Positions 7,977-17,910 of a stretch of DNA of 64,000 bases are shown one piece after another (the first letter of the stretch is position 1; the number at the start of each line of letters is the position of its first letter). The notes below the pieces were generated by a model. It did no database searches and had not been told where the DNA came from. It worked only from the letters and a program-made list of their open reading frames with translations. Source of the stretch: Nitrosomonadales bacterium (GTDB lineage: Bacteria > Pseudomonadota > Gammaproteobacteria > Burkholderiales > Gallionellaceae). The translations under genes and the position numbers were made by a program. The stretch lies in NCBI GenBank assembly GCA_016214695.1, contig JACRNY010000004.1, positions 248,001 to 312,000 of the forward strand, given 5' to 3'.

Positions 7977-8001
7977 AAATAAAAAACGGGCTCGAAGCCC
8001 A
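7977..8001 (-). terminator. Attenuator-like hairpin in the rimP leader
   Basis: On the minus strand GGGCTTCGAGCCC (7988-8000) is followed at once by G and TTTTTT, a textbook intrinsic terminator. It lies between the operon promoter and the rimP start rather than after a gene. Leader attenuators ahead of rimP have been described in other Proteobacteria. A role in feedback control of nusA is inference. Confidence 0.6.
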
Positions 8002-8095: not shown

Positions 8096-9133
8096 CTACA
8101 TGAAAAGCTTCCGGATTCCTTGCACATCCGGCTGCAGAACCACGCCCTTTTCCGTGATCAAGCCCGTCACCAGCTCCGCCGGAGTCACATCAAAAGCCGG
8201 ATTGCGTATCTTCACCCCCTCCGCCGCCCAGTGATAGTCGCGGAAGCCCTTCACCTCCTCCACCGAACGCTCCTCGATGGGAATGTCCTTGCCCGAGGCG
8301 ATATCGAGGTCGATGGTCGAGAGCGGGCACGCCACATAGAACGGGATGTTGTGCCGCTTCGCCAGCACCGCCACCATATAAGTACCGATCTTGTTCGCCA
8401 CATCGCCGTTGGCCGCCACCCGATCCGTACCCACCACCACCGCATCGATCTCGCCGTGCGCCATCAGGTGACCGGCCATGTTGTCGGTGATCAGCGTCAC
8501 CGGAATCTTCTCCTGCACCATCTCCCACGCCGTCAGCCGCGCGCCTTGCAGGAAAGGCCGGGTCTCGTCCGCAATCACGGAAATCTTCTTGCCCGCCTCC
8601 ACCGCCGAACGGAACACCCCCAGCGCCGTGCCCCACCCCGCCGTCGCCAGCGCACCCGCATTGCAATGCGTCAACACCCGCACCCCATCCTTGAGCAAAG
8701 CCGCGCCGTTCGCCCCCATCGCCTTGTTGATGCGAATGTCCTCGGCCAGTATCTCGTGCGCCTCGGCCAGCAGGCGCTGTGCGATCTGCTGCTGTGTTTG
8801 CGTCGCGACACCCTCCCAAACCTTGCGCATGCGCTGCAAGGCCCAGAACAGGTTTACCGCCGTCGGGCGGCTGGCCGCCAGCACTTTGAAGCCGGTATCC
8901 ATACCTGCCTTGAAATCATCCGCGGATTTCTCCTGCAGATGCAGCGCCTCCAGTGCCACGCCATACGCCGCCGCCACACCAATGGCCGGTGCACCGCGCA
9001 CCACCATGCTACGGATGCCTTCGGCCACCGAATGCGCGGTGTAGTAACTCAGGTATTCAAAGGCAGCCGGCAGGATGCGCTGGTCTATCATCTCCAGCCG
9101 GTTGTTGAACCAGCGTAGGGTTTCGATTTTCAT
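8096..9133 (-). CDS. mtnA: S-methyl-5-thioribose-1-phosphate isomerase
   Basis: MtnA, an eIF2B-like isomerase, converts 5-methylthioribose-1-phosphate (and, in DHAP-shunt organisms, 5-deoxyribose-1-phosphate) to the ribulose form. The product has 345 residues. It shows VVRGAPAIGVAAAYG near residues 45-60, the catalytic Cys segment LTHCNAGALATAGWGTALG, and the catalytic Asp segment GTDRVAANGDVANKIGTY. The ATG at 9133 follows GAAGAGAG; the frame could begin four codons earlier at a TTG. It is the last gene of an operon with mtnP, a class II aldolase and apt, which fits salvage of methylthioadenosine or 5'-deoxyadenosine. Confidence 0.95.
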   Translation of the reverse strand: MKIETLRWFNNRLEMIDQRILPAAFEYLSYYTAHSVAEGIRSMVVRGAPAIGVAAAYGVALEALHLQEKSADDFKAGMDTGFKVLAASRPTAVNLFWALQRMRKVWEGVATQTQQQIAQRLLAEAHEILAEDIRINKAMGANGAALLKDGVRVLTHCNAGALATAGWGTALGVFRSAVEAGKKISVIADETRPFLQGARLTAWEMVQEKIPVTLITDNMAGHLMAHGEIDAVVVGTDRVAANGDVANKIGTYMVAVLAKRHNIPFYVACPLSTIDLDIASGKDIPIEERSVEEVKGFRDYHWAAEGVKIRNPAFDVTPAELVTGLITEKGVVLQPDVQGIRKLFM

Positions 9134-9160
9134 GTCTCTCTTCAAAATATGGATGGTTGG

Positions 9161-9964
9161 TTAAGCAGCCACTTCACGCATAGAAACCAAAAACGCATCT
9201 TCAAGGAAGCTTATCGTTTCTGGCTGACCGTCCATTGATGCTCGAACGTGTTGAGTCGTGTATAGCTTTGCATTACTACTCCATTTCGCCTCATCACGCG
9301 TCACAGTTGCTAGCCATTTAACAGTACAAACATATTCGGATAGTTCTGGATCATTTTTATTTTCCGCAAGGCCAGGACAAATTAATTTGTTATCAAGCAA
9401 ACGTTTGCCACCAATTTCAACATCACGCACCATCTTGGCACACTCGGTGACCTTACCTATTCCAACAAATCCATGACGCTTAAGGTAAGCAGCAAATACA
9501 TCACCTTGCTTAAATCCGAGCATAGCGTCTCGCCAGCGGATTCCTTGGCCTGCAGAAATAAATCCCAATTTCACATAATCATCCCAGTTCCGATGAGGCC
9601 CTTCGCCAACGTTGTAATAGTAAAGGCCGTTACGATAATCAAAACCTGACAACTCTTTATGCAACGTATCGTGTGGTCGAAAATTATCTGCAAACGCCCC
9701 AGTTGCAATATTCTCGGTTAGTTTTCCCAATTTCCAGATTAGAGTCTTTTCAACAAGCAAAGCTTCTCGTTCAGTTAGATTTCGGGCAAGAACCCTAATG
9801 ATCGGAGCAAGACCTTCGCGCTTGATTGCAGCAATGCGTTTGGCTTTTGGTGAATCAGATAAATCAGAGAGATGAGCATCCTTGCGGGAGCCTTTACCTT
9901 TACCGTAATAAAACTCTTCAAAATTTCGTGGATCGATATATGCGTAAACGTAGTACTCAGACAT
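9161..9964 (-). CDS. GIY-YIG nuclease fused to a probable PUA/EVE-like domain
   Basis: A 267-residue cytoplasmic protein with no signal or membrane segment. Residues 1-95 form a GIY-YIG nuclease of the COG3680/LEM-3-like type: Y5-V-Y7, Y19-Y20-G21, R27, H31, the metal-binding E72 in LLVEKTLIWKLG, and N85. The rest begins YYYNVGEGPHRNWDDY and continues GFISAGQG, KQGDVFAAYLKRHGFVGIG, then AKLYTTQHVRASMDGQPET. That pattern resembles PUA-fold (EVE-like) modules found in nucleic-acid-targeting and defence proteins; the assignment is from memory of the family, not a search. All expected catalytic residues are present. The start follows GAGGGGGAT and lies one base after the apt stop (TGATATG). Base composition differs sharply from the neighbours: 20 of 60 bases in 9301-9360 and 23 of 60 in 9361-9420 are G or C. 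A recent gain is likely; a restriction-like role is inference. Confidence 0.85.
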   Translation of the reverse strand: MSEYYVYAYIDPRNFEEFYYGKGKGSRKDAHLSDLSDSPKAKRIAAIKREGLAPIIRVLARNLTEREALLVEKTLIWKLGKLTENIATGAFADNFRPHDTLHKELSGFDYRNGLYYYNVGEGPHRNWDDYVKLGFISAGQGIRWRDAMLGFKQGDVFAAYLKRHGFVGIGKVTECAKMVRDVEIGGKRLLDNKLICPGLAENKNDPELSEYVCTVKWLATVTRDEAKWSSNAKLYTTQHVRASMDGQPETISFLEDAFLVSMREVAA

Positions 9965-9965
9965 A

Positions 9966-10493
<528 letters not shown>

Positions 10494-10633: not shown

Positions 10634-11272
10634 TTAGCTACGCTTCTTGTATTCGACAAACTTCGCTTTCACCTCGTGCATCTGCTGCGCAGTGAGTATC
10701 CTCGGCTCTCCCACCGACAATGCGCGCCAATAGATCTCGCACAGGTATTCGACCTCGTGCGCAACGGACAGCGCATCGTCGAGGTCTTTTCCCAGCGCGA
10801 TCATGCCGTGGTTGCCGAGCAGGCAGGCTTTACGGTCGCGCAGGGCTTCCAGCGCGAGATCGGAGAGATTCTGTTCGCCGAAGAGGGTGTACGGCGTGCA
10901 GCGGATGGTGTCGCCGCCCGCGATGGCGATGTGGTAGTGGACGGCGGGCACGTCCCTGCCCAGGCAGGCCATGGTGGTGGCGTAGGTGGAATGCATGTGC
11001 AGCACGGCGCCGATCTCGGGGCGGGCATTGAAGATGTCGCAGTGGAAGCGCCATTCGCTGGAGGGTTTACGGCCTTGCAGCACTTTCCCTTCCTTGTCGA
11101 TCAGCACCAGGTCTTGCTCGGTCATCTCGGCGACAGGCAAGGCGGAGGGGGTGATGAGGATGTCATTGCCGCAGCGCACCGAGGCGTTGCCTGCCGTGCC
11201 GCGATTGAGGCCGAGTTCGACCATGCGGAGGGAGGTTTTCAGCAGGGATGTGCGTAATTGTTGTTCGGTCAT
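10634..11272 (-). CDS. Class II aldolase of the fuculose-phosphate aldolase family, probable 5-deoxyribulose-1-phosphate / methylthioribulose-1-phosphate aldolase
   Basis: Zn-dependent class II (FucA/adducin family) aldolase of 212 residues. With the ATG at 11272, the zinc and catalytic residues fall at E73 (PSSEWRFH), H92 and H94 (AVLHMHST) and H155 (LLGNHGM), the same numbers as in E. coli FucA. This supports both family and start. A 20-codon upstream extension is open but comes from the REP-like repeat. Neighbours mtnP, mtnA and apt point to the Ald2-type enzyme of the DHAP shunt, which cleaves (5-methylthio- or 5-deoxy-)ribulose-1-phosphate to DHAP and an aldehyde. The alternative is MtnB dehydratase of the methionine salvage pathway, but the rest of that pathway (mtnC/D/K) is absent here. 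Substrate is inference. Confidence 0.85.
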   Translation of the reverse strand: MTEQQLRTSLLKTSLRMVELGLNRGTAGNASVRCGNDILITPSALPVAEMTEQDLVLIDKEGKVLQGRKPSSEWRFHCDIFNARPEIGAVLHMHSTYATTMACLGRDVPAVHYHIAIAGGDTIRCTPYTLFGEQNLSDLALEALRDRKACLLGNHGMIALGKDLDDALSVAHEVEYLCEIYWRALSVGEPRILTAQQMHEVKAKFVEYKKRS

Positions 11273-11283
11273 CTTTAAATATG

Positions 11284-11357
11284 CCGTTCGCCCTGAGCCT
11301 GTCGAAGGGCTGTCTTTCGGTTGTCCGTTCATGGTTCGACAGGCTCACCACGAACGG
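11284..11357. repeat. Inverted pair of REP-like palindromes
   Basis: 11284-11309 (CCGTTCGCCCTGAGCCTGTC...) and 11325-11357 (CCGTTCATGGTTCGACAGGC... ending CACGAACGG) carry the same core in opposite orientation. The second is itself palindromic, with CCGTTC..GAACGG ends. They fill the interval between mtnP and the aldolase start and would fold in the operon mRNA. Confidence 0.75.
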
Positions 11358-11386
11358 AAATCTCATGCGGCGTTGCTCTAAAACCT

Positions 11387-12256
11387 TTACAGCACCCGCC
11401 CCGCGATGGCCTGCAGCTTCTTTTTCATCACTTCATCGCGTGCCTCGGGCGCGGTGATGAGTGCGTATTGCAGCGCGCTGCGACAGCCGCACTCGCAAGC
11501 CTTGGCATCGTGGCCGACATGCGGCACGAGGTGTTTGACCAGTGTCTTGGCTTTGTCGGCGTTGGCCAGCAACACCTTGATGATCTGCTCCACGGTCACG
11601 TCGTCGTGGTCGGGATGCCAGCAGTCGTAGTCGGTGACCATGGCGACGGTGGCATAGCACAGCTCGGCTTCGCGGGCGAGTTTGGCTTCGGGCATGTTGG
11701 TCATGCCGATCACGTCGCAGCCCCATTGGCGGTACAGCTCGGATTCAGCGAGGCTGGAGAACTGCGGGCCTTCCATGACCAGGTAGGTGCCGCCGCGCAG
11801 GGCGTTGATGTTGGCTTCCTTGGCCGCTTTCTCGATATGGTCGCCGAGGCGTTTGCACACCGGATGCGCCATCGAGACATGCGCCACCAGACCGCTGCCA
11901 AAGAAGGATTTCTCTCTTGCGAAGGTACGGTCGATGAACTGGTCGACGATGACGAAGGTGCCGGGTGTCAGGTGTTCGCGCAGGGAGCCGACGGCGCTGA
12001 CCGAGATGACATCCGTCACCCCTACCCGTTTCAGCACGTCGATGTTGGCGCGGAAGTTGATCTCGGAGGGCGGTATCTTGTGGCCGCGTCCGTGACGCGG
12101 CAGAAAGGCCAGTTTGACGCCGTTGAGTTCGCCGAACAGCAGTTCGTCCGAGGGCTCACCGAAAGACGATTCGACCTTTTCCCAGCGCTTGTTCTCCAAC
12201 CCGGCGATGTCGTAGACGCCGCTGCCGCCGATGATGCCGATGCTTGCCTGCCCCAT
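11387..12256 (-). CDS. mtnP: S-methyl-5'-thioadenosine phosphorylase
   Basis: Purine nucleoside phosphorylase family enzyme that splits methylthioadenosine (often also 5'-deoxyadenosine) with phosphate to adenine and the ribose-1-phosphate. The product has 289 residues, starting MGQASIGIIGGSGVYDI. It has the phosphate-binding LPRHGRGHKIPPSEINFRAN, SAVGSLRE, the purine-site VMEGPQFSS and GMTNMPEAKLAREAE, and the TDYDCW segment. The ATG at 12256 follows GGGGGAGAG; an upstream extension in frame is unsupported. First gene of the salvage operon reading toward the aldolase, apt, the GIY-YIG gene and mtnA. A Cys-rich stretch (CECGC) lies near the C-terminus. Confidence 0.95.
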   Translation of the reverse strand: MGQASIGIIGGSGVYDIAGLENKRWEKVESSFGEPSDELLFGELNGVKLAFLPRHGRGHKIPPSEINFRANIDVLKRVGVTDVISVSAVGSLREHLTPGTFVIVDQFIDRTFAREKSFFGSGLVAHVSMAHPVCKRLGDHIEKAAKEANINALRGGTYLVMEGPQFSSLAESELYRQWGCDVIGMTNMPEAKLAREAELCYATVAMVTDYDCWHPDHDDVTVEQIIKVLLANADKAKTLVKHLVPHVGHDAKACECGCRSALQYALITAPEARDEVMKKKLQAIAGRVL

Positions 12257-12381
12257 GCTCTCCCCCTGTTTCGCAATGGGCATGGATTGAAACAGGAAAC
12301 CGCGTTTCGCTCAAGGTCAAGATGGACAAGAAACCCGCTCGGGCGTATCTTTTGCGCCATTCATTCCACGAGTCATACCCC

Positions 12382-15156: not shown

Positions 15157-17910
15157 TCAGAACTCTTTTTCGACTTCGCCCTGCTGCTTCTGCGCTGATT
15201 TGTCACCCAGGTCGGTAGCCAGCCTGAGGCTTGCCACCTTGGCCATCTCTTCCGTTTTCGGCTCAGGCGCGACCTGTACCGCCGCGACATTGCCGCTCGC
15301 CACGCTCTCCACCGCCGGCGTCTTGGAGTTGGAACCGTTCATCCAGAGTCCCACACTCAGCAGCAGCGAGGCTGCCAGGGCGACTTGCGAAAGCCTGTTG
15401 ATGCGATGGGTCTTGCGCAGTTTCTGCAACAGCTTGCCGGTCTCCAGTTGTGCTTTGGCATGGCGCAACTCTTCGCCGACTTCCTTGATCATGCTCCGCT
15501 CCAGTTCCTCGCCCGCTCTCACCGTGGCGATCAACTGCTCCTGCATCTCGGCATTCTCATTGGCGGCCTGCTGCGCCAGCAATTCTGCCAGACCGCGCTG
15601 GCGTGCAGCCTCAGTGGCATGCTGTTCGGCCGCGATACGTTCTTCAGCGGCTTCAGTGGCGCTGCGTTCCGCATCCAGCCGTTCCTTGCGGGCTTGAGCG
15701 AAGCGCTCTTCGGCCTCGAGATTGCGCTGCGCCTGCTCAAGCTGGGCAGTTTCCTCGCGCACCCGCTCTTCAGCCAGTTGTTTCGCCTGCTCTGCGATTG
15801 CCATGCGTTGACGCGCCAGCACCGCGGCACGCGCTTGTGCCTGGACAGTCTCTTCTTCTGTCTTGATCGCCTGCGCCAGGGCTTCAGCCTGGGCCTTGGA
15901 CATATTCAGCGCACGCAACTCCAACTCCTCTTTTGTCCGGGCTGCAGCGATGATTTCTTCGGCCAAAGCGACCTTGGCAGCGGCGATCTCCTGCGCACGC
16001 ACTTCTGCGGCGATGCATTCGTTATCGGCTTCGATGGCTTTCAGTTCGGTGTCCATACGCAGAGTGATCTGTTCGATGGCCTCATTCTCCGCATTTGCCA
16101 GGGCTTGCGCAACCTCTGCCGCTTCCGCATCCAAAACACGACGGCGCTGGGCCGCTTCAGAAGCCAGGCGATCCGCCTCGTTGCGCTGCTGCAAGGCGGC
16201 GATCGCGGCGGCCTCTTCTGCCAACCTTGCCTCCTCGGCAAGACACGATTCCGCCATCACTTGGGTACGCAGCTCGGTCTGCACCAGTGCCGCATTGATG
16301 GCATCCAGCTTCCTCTGCAACTCTTTTGACGCCTGCTCGTCGACAGCAGCCTGAGCACGTTCGGCAGCCAGCACCGCACTTTCCTGGGCTATCCGGTTCT
16401 GGGCGATGGTGCGCGCACGGTCGGCCATCTCTTGGCGCTGCTTGGCCTTCTCGATAGCTTCTTCTTCCGCCTGAATCTGTGTGCGGGCGGCATGCTCTGC
16501 ACGCTCATCGGCTTCGATACGCTGTTGCATCGCCGCGACCGCGCCAGTCTCTGCAGCCAGCCTGGCTTCTTCGGCAAGACACGATTCCGCCATCAGGCGG
16601 GCACGCTGCTCTGCCAGCGGCAGTGCGGCATTGATCGCTGCCAGCTTCTTCTCCAGCTCCCTTGTCGCCAGTTCTTCGGCCTCGGCATATGCATGCTCGG
16701 CCGCCAGGGTCGCGCTCTCCAACTCCGCCTTGCCCTGGGCGATACTGCGCGCGCACTCGGCCATCTCATAACGCTGGTTGGCCAGTTCTATGGCTTCGGC
16801 TTCGGCATGCACCTGCAGTTCGACGGCATGCGAGGCTCGCATATCGGCTTCGGCACGCTCTTGTGCCAGTTCCATCAATTCACGCTCGGCCTGTAGCCTG
16901 ACCTCGGCTGCACGCTTGGCCTGTTCCTCGGCGGCCAGCATGTCGCGGGCTTCCAGTTCGATCTGCTTGAGCACCGCATTCGCGGCCTCGCGCTCCCTGA
17001 GCGCCTGCTGCTCGGCTTCCACGCGGGAGTCCAGCAGCTTCAGCATCTCCTGCTCGGCCTGCAGTTTGCGTTCTGCGGCAAGCCGCTCGGCTTGCTCTTT
17101 CTCGGCCGCATGTCTGGCCATTTCCACCGACTTCAGTTCTGCAGCGACACGTGCAGATGCCTCGGCCTGTGCTGCCTGCTCGGCCCTGATGCGCAGCTCG
17201 GCCGCTTCCGCCAGTTTGCGTTCCTCGGCGACGCGCTCCGTCGCGGCACGCTCCGCTTCCAGCTCTGCAGCCACGCGGGCCTGCTTCTCGGCCAGCGCCA
17301 TCATCTCCGTGCGCACGCGGGCGTTCATCGCCTCCTGAGCGCTCTCCTCCGCGACCAGCTTGGCATTGACCATCGCCATCGCTTCTTTTTCGGCCTTGAG
17401 CTTGTCCTGCATACTCTGTTTCACCAGGCTCTCGGTATGCGCTTTCGCCTGTGCAAGCAAAGCCGCTTCACGATCCAGCTTCTCCCGCTGCTCTGCTTCT
17501 TCGCGCAAGCGCTGTTCGGCTGCCTGGCGCTGGTCGAGCTCTGCCCGGGCTTGTCTTTCTGCTTCCAGTTTTGCGCGCACAGACTCTGTCAGGCGCTCTT
17601 CTGCTTTCTTCTTGGCGGATGCGGATGCGAGCAGTTCACGCTCCAGCTCGGCGCGAACCTGCACCTCGTTGATGATCTGAGCCTCGGCACGGGTGCGCAC
17701 TTCGACCAGTTCGGCCAGTTCGCTCTCCTGTTTCGCCTTATCCTGCAGAACTGCCTGGACATGCGCCTCGGCGCGCGCGCGGGCTTGTGCTGCCAACTGC
17801 GCTTCGATCTCGGCTTCTATGCGGCTGCGCGATTCCAGTATCGCTTCGGACTCGACAGGATCCGCTTCGTCGCGGGAAGAAACCAGGCGTATTTTCTTTT
17901 GAGCTGACAT
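15157..17910 (-). CDS. Very long alanine/glutamate-rich coiled-coil protein with a C-terminal membrane anchor
   Basis: A 917-residue protein I do not recognise. There is no signal peptide. Residues about 25-840 are almost unbroken Ala/Glu/Arg/Gln-rich heptads without proline, so a long coiled coil is expected. A single hydrophobic helix (VALAASLLLSVGLWMNG, about 843-859) is followed by a 58-residue tail. The middle holds two copies plus the start of a third copy of a unit with segments such as MAESCLAEEARLA, KLxAINAAL and EMAxxAR. The identical MAESCLAEEARLA segments lie 336 bp apart, that is 112 residues or 16 heptads. The ATG at 17910 follows AAGAGGTG. The expected topology is a cytoplasmic rod anchored at the inner membrane with a periplasmic tail. 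It stands alone between convergent copA/slyB and the MASE1 gene. A structural or scaffold role is a guess. Confidence 0.85.
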   Translation of the reverse strand: MSAQKKIRLVSSRDEADPVESEAILESRSRIEAEIEAQLAAQARARAEAHVQAVLQDKAKQESELAELVEVRTRAEAQIINEVQVRAELERELLASASAKKKAEERLTESVRAKLEAERQARAELDQRQAAEQRLREEAEQREKLDREAALLAQAKAHTESLVKQSMQDKLKAEKEAMAMVNAKLVAEESAQEAMNARVRTEMMALAEKQARVAAELEAERAATERVAEERKLAEAAELRIRAEQAAQAEASARVAAELKSVEMARHAAEKEQAERLAAERKLQAEQEMLKLLDSRVEAEQQALREREAANAVLKQIELEARDMLAAEEQAKRAAEVRLQAERELMELAQERAEADMRASHAVELQVHAEAEAIELANQRYEMAECARSIAQGKAELESATLAAEHAYAEAEELATRELEKKLAAINAALPLAEQRARLMAESCLAEEARLAAETGAVAAMQQRIEADERAEHAARTQIQAEEEAIEKAKQRQEMADRARTIAQNRIAQESAVLAAERAQAAVDEQASKELQRKLDAINAALVQTELRTQVMAESCLAEEARLAEEAAAIAALQQRNEADRLASEAAQRRRVLDAEAAEVAQALANAENEAIEQITLRMDTELKAIEADNECIAAEVRAQEIAAAKVALAEEIIAAARTKEELELRALNMSKAQAEALAQAIKTEEETVQAQARAAVLARQRMAIAEQAKQLAEERVREETAQLEQAQRNLEAEERFAQARKERLDAERSATEAAEERIAAEQHATEAARQRGLAELLAQQAANENAEMQEQLIATVRAGEELERSMIKEVGEELRHAKAQLETGKLLQKLRKTHRINRLSQVALAASLLLSVGLWMNGSNSKTPAVESVASGNVAAVQVAPEPKTEEMAKVASLRLATDLGDKSAQKQQGEVEKEF

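Follow-up and report, generated by a model that had tools for sequence, protein, structure and literature searches.

The 64,000-nucleotide stretch of DNA analyzed here (the window) comes from a Nitrosomonadales bacterium of the family Gallionellaceae (GenBank assembly GCA_016214695.1, contig JACRNY010000004.1, positions 248,001 to 312,000) and contains, on its minus strand, a gene for a protein in which an N-terminal GIY-YIG nuclease is joined to a C-terminal domain with a predicted EVE/YTH-type fold. We consider this gene likely, with a probability of about 0.7, to encode a single-protein, modification-dependent (type IV-like) restriction endonuclease that was acquired horizontally and that occupies an exchange slot between apt and mtnA. 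When phage or plasmid DNA enters the cell, the EVE/YTH-type domain would recognize a modified base by flipping and binding it. Cleavage would follow by the nuclease domain, which is of the kind found in CMoRE (PD-T4-3) and would probably act as a dimer or a tetramer. The gene would have arrived in the host genome by horizontal transfer into the slot that separates the apt stop codon from the start codon of mtnA. Its transcription could come from the operon, and the Shine-Dalgarno-like end of apt could serve its translation. Cargo would be exchanged among strains and among genera, for which homologous recombination in the core genes on either side is the simplest route. The gene, its domains, the slot and its flanks are located as follows.

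9161..9964, minus strand: gene for the predicted GIY-YIG/EVE-like modification-dependent endonuclease, 267 amino acids (aa); start codon ATG at 9962-9964, stop codon at 9161-9163.
9677..9964, minus strand: GIY-YIG nuclease domain, residues 1-96, with the GIYxY-YIG motif (Y5/Y7/Y19), R27, H31, E72 and N85.
9179..9631, minus strand: predicted EVE/YTH-type PUA-like domain, residues 112-262, common to PADLOC PDC-S11.
9134..9965, no strand assigned: apt-mtnA exchange slot, 832 bp here, from the apt stop codon to the mtnA start codon.
9966..10493, minus strand: apt, the upstream slot flank, whose last codons hold the Shine-Dalgarno-like GAGGGGGAT just ahead of the stop codon.
8096..9133, minus strand: mtnA, the downstream slot flank.

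The gene had been singled out from the DNA letters alone as A+T-rich and foreign-looking (hereafter the original prediction), and that description agrees with what was found. The reading frame is free of internal stops, its G+C content is 0.43 as compared with 0.62 in the 5 kb on each side and 0.60 in the whole window, and the C-terminal strings NVGEG.HR.W, GFISAG, GD..AYL and LYTTQHVRAS are present. The start codon lies one base behind the apt stop codon (TGA-T-ATG), so there is no promoter gap. The 2.66-Mb host genome holds one copy. Of the claim that the gene sits inside a purine-salvage operon, the insertion between apt and mtnA stands, and the operon type is refined: the order mtnP-class II aldolase-apt-mtnA, in which the gene names follow general knowledge of the families and not a database result, suggests salvage of 5'-methylthioadenosine/5'-deoxynucleosides and not of purines alone.

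The N-terminal half is a LEM-3/CMoRE-type GIY-YIG nuclease, an identity supported by Pfam, PADLOC and structure alignments. In an alignment of 46 sequences, comprising the window protein and 45 homologues, every member matches Pfam LEM-3_GIY-YIG, the eight GIY-YIG motif residues tested are invariant, and the catalytic residues said to be kept, namely Y5, Y7, Y19, R27, H31, E72 and N85, are each found in all 46. The solved CMoRE structure 9u75 aligns with the family profile at positions 5-98 only. When aligned to 9u75, Y5, Y7 and Y19 correspond to the three-tyrosine GIYxY-YIG motif of CMoRE (PD-T4-3), and the two further catalytic residues of GIY-YIG nucleases, Arg and Glu, are present as in that enzyme.

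The C-terminal half is predicted to adopt a PUA fold of the EVE/YTH type with a predicted local distance difference test score (pLDDT) of 94, so that the PUA-like reader of the original prediction, rather than some other fold, is borne out at the level of predicted structure. Residues N118, W127, D129, F135, D155, Y160 and W217 are invariant in the 46 sequences. The EVE reader of VcaM4I is among the best solved structural matches listed for the domain, and YTH domains make up most of the VIA and Foldseek matches listed. The C-terminal ~150 residues are also homologous to the PADLOC candidate PDC-S11 (5e-30). Whole-chain alignments, one of which extends to residue 247 of the window protein with a root mean square deviation of 11.4, suggested that the CMoRE sensor may be a further homologue; CMoRE is absent from the 50 matches listed for the domain alone, a result compatible with either outcome. 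No methyltransferase is present in the window slot, and no match to the cytosine-5 methyltransferase family PF00145 was found in the host genome. Both results are consistent with a type IV enzyme, which needs no cognate methyltransferase, and the second fits a reader of 5-methylcytosine or 5-hydroxymethylcytosine (5mC/5hmC); a YTH-like reading of N6-methyladenine (6mA) is equally possible.

The fold is as close to the YTH readers of N6-methyladenosine (m6A) in RNA as it is to EVE domains, and together with the prevalence of YTH domains among the listed matches this would suit a nuclease that recognizes modified RNA as its target, such as an effector of abortive infection. We regard this as quite unlikely. 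The nuclease half is closest to the DNA endonuclease CMoRE, plasmid relatives of the C-terminal domain are annotated with NucS/DUF91-type nucleases (4 of the 20 listed), and VcaM4I, according to the accessible part of its description (PMC7897488), reads DNA through the same EVE-type fold.

Homologues were found at 51 loci in genome_contigs at 46-70% identity, 50 of them over most of the length and one as a 52-residue match; therefore the gene is more than a chance reading frame. Among nine homologues, a sample that excludes the window gene, the ratio of nonsynonymous to synonymous substitution rates (dN/dS) is 0.04-0.11 in 8 of 22 listed pairs with computable dS, indicating purifying selection. 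In a tree of 50 sequences (the window gene and 49 loci, with L035 and L052 excluded and many entries being metagenome bins), Pseudomonadota requires 5 changes, and the window gene is nearest to sequences from Nitrospira and Pyrinomonadaceae. The full gene occurs in 1 of 158 genomes of the host family, three more having short or partial matches. In the host order, 15 of 399 genomes have a match, which covers the whole length in the host genome only. A full-length relative with 61% identity, found by way of PDC-S11, is present in one genome of the same class. This sporadic presence and the low G+C content support the foreign origin that had been proposed, and vertical inheritance as a member of the operon is ruled out by the distribution in the family together with the variable apt-mtnA junctions described below. 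The same features make it very improbable that the protein, in the manner of UvrC or LEM-3/ANKLE1, recognizes damaged bases as a nuclease of DNA repair instead of serving defence. The LEM-3_GIY-YIG match in all 46 members would suit that role, but the single full-length copy in the family, the low G+C content, the location in an exchange slot and the closest solved relative, a restriction enzyme, argue against it.

A phage origin was rejected: none of 50,697 phage records covers 80% of the query, six match 31-43% of it, and none of four viral_contigs pattern matches encodes a relative. A DNA-level search for the gene in Escherichia coli gave no match. The proposed association of homologues with defence islands gave a mixed outcome. 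The neighbor scan covered 149 of 182 called neighboring open reading frames (ORFs) and the first 25 families per library, with no control set, and settles the matter neither way; the families listed include defence genes (Old, GajA-like, AbiEii, SduA and reverse transcriptase) as well as ordinary genes. At one locus, a protein that combines MrcB_N and HNH domains (L031:6946-7983) stops where the homologue begins, placing two restriction-type genes side by side. Among the 45 homologues with a called upstream ORF, 12 have a codirectional one within 50 bp. In three Anaerolineales/Chloroflexota loci (L026, L027 and L046, at about position 8000), the homologue lies between genes for the FAD and the molybdenum/iron-sulfur subunits of a xanthine-dehydrogenase-like operon, where it either overlaps its downstream neighbor by a few bases or lies a few bases ahead of it, and is thus hosted by a second housekeeping operon. 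The molybdopterin-dehydrogenase flanks were identified by Pfam on both sides in L026 and on the upstream side in L046, and L027 has similar lengths and spacing.

Within the host genus, apt was found in 31 of 34 genomes and the locus was obtained for 30, with mtnA downstream of apt in 28 and two loci unresolved. The variable presence expected at this junction was observed, and the pattern of a vertically conserved operon member was not seen. Ten of the 28 junctions are empty, with the apt stop and the mtnA start -1 to 3 bases apart, and 18 are filled with inserts of 371-2814 bp. In all 28 loci the end of apt and the start of mtnA are conserved up to the junction. The inserts have a G+C content of 0.38-0.50 (mean 0.44) as compared with 0.54-0.63 (mean 0.59) in the adjoining stretch of apt, the value being lower in 18/18, and in every filled slot the longest called reading frame is codirectional with the operon. 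On a tree of the apt and mtnA ends, the state of the slot requires at least 8 changes, and 243 of 500 shuffles gave a number equally low; therefore filled and empty slots are not distributed according to descent.

Five other junctions in the same genomes served as controls. With a cut-off of 350 bp, set after the lengths had been seen, inserts occur in 2 of 113 control junctions: mtnP-aldolase 0/26, aldolase-apt 1/29, mtnA-rimP 1/24, rimP-nusA 0/18 and nusA-infB 0/16. Fisher's test at this cut-off gives 9e-14, a value that is descriptive only because the genomes are related and the cut-off was chosen afterwards. Inserts above 250 bp are found in 18/28 apt-mtnA junctions versus 6/113 controls, mtnA-rimP accounting for 5/24. 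The sole insert above 250 bp at the 29 aldolase-apt junctions is one of 783 bp (L107, genome G129).

Four filled slots contain a further apt 3' end of about 60-180 bases, either between cargo units or ahead of the cargo. Three were identified by protein (G135, L114; G154, L104/L115; G115, L123) and the fourth (G125, L116) by 59 bases of DNA that match those in G135 and G154. They fit recombination through apt, the route by which cargo may enter. An imperfect palindromic repeat of 144-147 bp directly follows the apt stop codon in G139 and G124 and, by eye, in G016, and thus in two genera. It was considered as a cassette end or mobilizer and rejected because related copies are dispersed in 33/34 genomes of the genus. 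The upstream genes of the control junctions in the window and the loci of the repeat are given here.

10634..12283, minus strand: class II aldolase and mtnP, in the same operon upstream of apt (names from general knowledge of the families, as above).
L088:2029-2172, L098 and L156:5900-6045: palindromic repeat behind apt.

The slots of the genus contain 34 called ORFs, including four antisense ones that are probably spurious; 20 were scanned by Pfam and 20 by PADLOC in addition to the window gene. Cargo of defence type comprises the GIY-YIG-EVE gene of the window, Mrr (G148), an HNH protein resembling a type IV enzyme (G154), AbiEii paired with a helix-turn-helix protein (G131, with an 82%-identical copy in G135), DUF2971/PDC-S31 (G138), a RiboL-PSP HEPN protein (G147) and a RES protein (G125). 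When HEPN and RES, which we take to be toxin-type families, are counted, 8 of the 18 filled slots carry such cargo. PADLOC alone gives 6/18, with G135 included through its similarity to G131 and weak matches of the Sel1-repeat protein left out. No integrase match was found among the 20 slot ORFs scanned by Pfam.

The position of the gene exactly at a conserved gene boundary, and the presence of a "putative homing nuclease" among the partial phage matches, would be accounted for if the protein were a selfish homing nuclease of the GIY-YIG type whose spread depends on cleavage of unoccupied apt-mtnA sites. This seems most improbable: many unrelated genes occupy the same slot, homologues elsewhere adjoin other genes, and no phage record covers 80% of the query. 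To our knowledge, homing enzymes normally have no base-reader domain, which also weighs against such an origin.

Outside the genus, all 67 genomes of the family with an apt hit and at least 90% completeness were read. Inserts of at least 250 bp occur in 12 of 40 resolved apt-mtnA junctions of genus g6, which has a diverged type of mtnA, in both resolved junctions of g13 (of 4), in 1 of 2 in g15, and in the one resolved junction of g5 (of 2), where no codirectional ORF is present. In g12, none of 13 junctions is filled, and four single genomes of other genera also lack an insert. Four kinds of cargo recur in the slot of more than one genus: the AbiEii pair in g1 and g13 (82-85% DNA identity), Mrr in g1 and g6 (80% protein identity), a family of 175-180 aa in g13 and g6 (61% identity) and the window gene. 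Of the last, a g6 genome (G016) retains, between apt and mtnA and behind the palindromic repeat, a remnant of 23 of the final residues at 74% identity.

The sequence GAGGG lies just ahead of the apt stop codon in 26 of 28 genomes, and at empty junctions there is an overlap or almost no gap between apt and mtnA. Judged by its sequence, this apt end is Shine-Dalgarno-like and would be able to serve a reading frame close behind it. In 11 of the 18 filled slots, the main cargo frame overlaps the end of apt or starts within 30 bp. The window gene, one base behind the apt stop, could therefore be transcribed with the operon and translated from this end of apt.

Several observations weigh against the restriction endonuclease and exchange slot proposed here. 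CMoRE has a loop with four consecutive acidic residues, which are found in none of the 46 members (the longest acidic run is 1 in 27, 2 in 17 and 3 in 2), and this loop is shorter in the window protein than in 9u75; the portion of the CMoRE report available (PMC12923530) places the negatively charged loop in "most", not all, CMoREs. The sequence relationship to the EVE family is weak both by hhalign (probability 42%, E 2.6e-4, over 45 columns that match W127 and Y160 to the conserved EVE Trp and Tyr) and by Pfam, in which EVE is matched by 2 of 46 members with a best E of 0.075. The homologue neighbors, as noted, comprise ordinary genes as well as defence genes. In 7 of 18 filled slots, a distance of 51-361 bp separates the start of the main cargo from apt, which puts the apt end out of its reach, and the AbiEii cargo is preceded by a palindrome that may act as an operator of its own; use of the apt end may therefore apply to some cargo but is not general. 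A codirectional ORF of 60 aa is lacking from 5 of the 12 filled g6 junctions, and the longest slot ORF of G068 (g6) is antisense, so that some g6 fillings look like remnants. Ten of the 18 filled slots in the genus have no defence-type match. Their cargoes, which do not look like defence genes, include DUF4424 (G136 and, through similarity of the DNA, G145), an Exo_endo_phos protein (G144) and proteins with no match reaching the Pfam cut-off, among them what by eye are a membrane protein and a lipoprotein.

These ten slots, the dispersed palindromic repeats that also lie in the slot, the absence of fillings in g12 and the number of control junctions, just five, would all suit an ordinary neutral junction that tolerates insertions, with the restriction gene as a chance passenger. 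We consider this unlikely, since the control junctions are nearly free of inserts and cargo recurs across genera at the same place. An extension of the exchange slot interpretation, which we put forward tentatively as possible rather than probable, is that apt-mtnA is a built-in cassette site. The apt end would supply the ribosome-binding site for cargo starting close behind it, and arriving units might carry in or deposit an additional apt 3' end, as in the four slots described above. Small defence genes, among them three types of nuclease with matches to modification-dependent families (GIY-YIG-EVE, Mrr and HNH), would be swapped into and out of a housekeeping operon, apparently without an integrase of their own, and the window gene would belong to a modular restriction family with one EVE-type reader exchanged between GIY-YIG and NucS-like nucleases. 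Elsewhere in the window, the minus strand at 15157-17910 encodes a 917-aa protein that by eye consists mostly of Ala/Glu/Arg-rich repeats with a hydrophobic stretch near the end and is probably a coiled coil.

The description of the gene as an undescribed system was overstated. Its nuclease half is related to the characterized PD-T4-3/CMoRE (PMC12923530), its C-terminal domain falls within PADLOC PDC-S11, and EVE-GIY-YIG fusions were noted in 2020 (PMC7641849), as far as the accessible parts of these reports go. In a literature search from which subscription journals and preprints were largely absent, there was no sequence-level account of the EVE-type family and none of the apt-mtnA slot. The pairing of a reader of the EVE/YTH kind with a CMoRE-type nuclease in a widespread family could yield enzymes of new base specificity. 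The slot may represent a compact route of defence-gene turnover, in which one or a few genes at a time are exchanged inside a core operon and expression could come from that operon; searches based on islands may miss such genes because their neighbors are housekeeping genes.

As in the core defence hotspots of Pseudomonas aeruginosa, to the extent that their report is accessible (PMC10250203), variable and defence-rich cargo lies between conserved genes. In contrast to those hotspots, the slot unit here is one to three genes (0.4-2.8 kb) placed exactly between two codons of an operon, and the Pfam-scanned slot ORFs gave no integrase match. The EVE-GIY-YIG fusions of the 2020 EVE survey (PMC7641849) have a domain pair of the same kind, a likeness drawn from their description in the part of the survey available and not from sequences. 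PDC-S11, a PADLOC candidate single-gene system for which the available portions of two papers naming it state no function, has homologous C-terminal residues, but only positions 206-355 of its 358 are aligned; its N-terminal half, probably a NucS/DUF91-type nuclease to judge from the annotated plasmid relatives, is not matched by the window protein, in which GIY-YIG takes this place. VcaM4I, an EVE-HNH type IV enzyme (PMC7897488), likewise joins a nuclease to an EVE reader of the same fold, but its nuclease is HNH, its reader is N-terminal and the identity is 6-7% over the aligned part. CMoRE (PD-T4-3) of E. coli differs in its acidic loop and may differ in its sensor, for which its authors report no homologue in the accessible text (PMC12923530), whereas the C-terminal domain here is EVE/YTH-type by prediction. 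The sequence common to both is ~90 residues, and in each a single protein combines an N-terminal GIYxY-YIG nuclease, with conserved catalytic Tyr, Arg and Glu, and a C-terminal domain proposed to sense modified bases.
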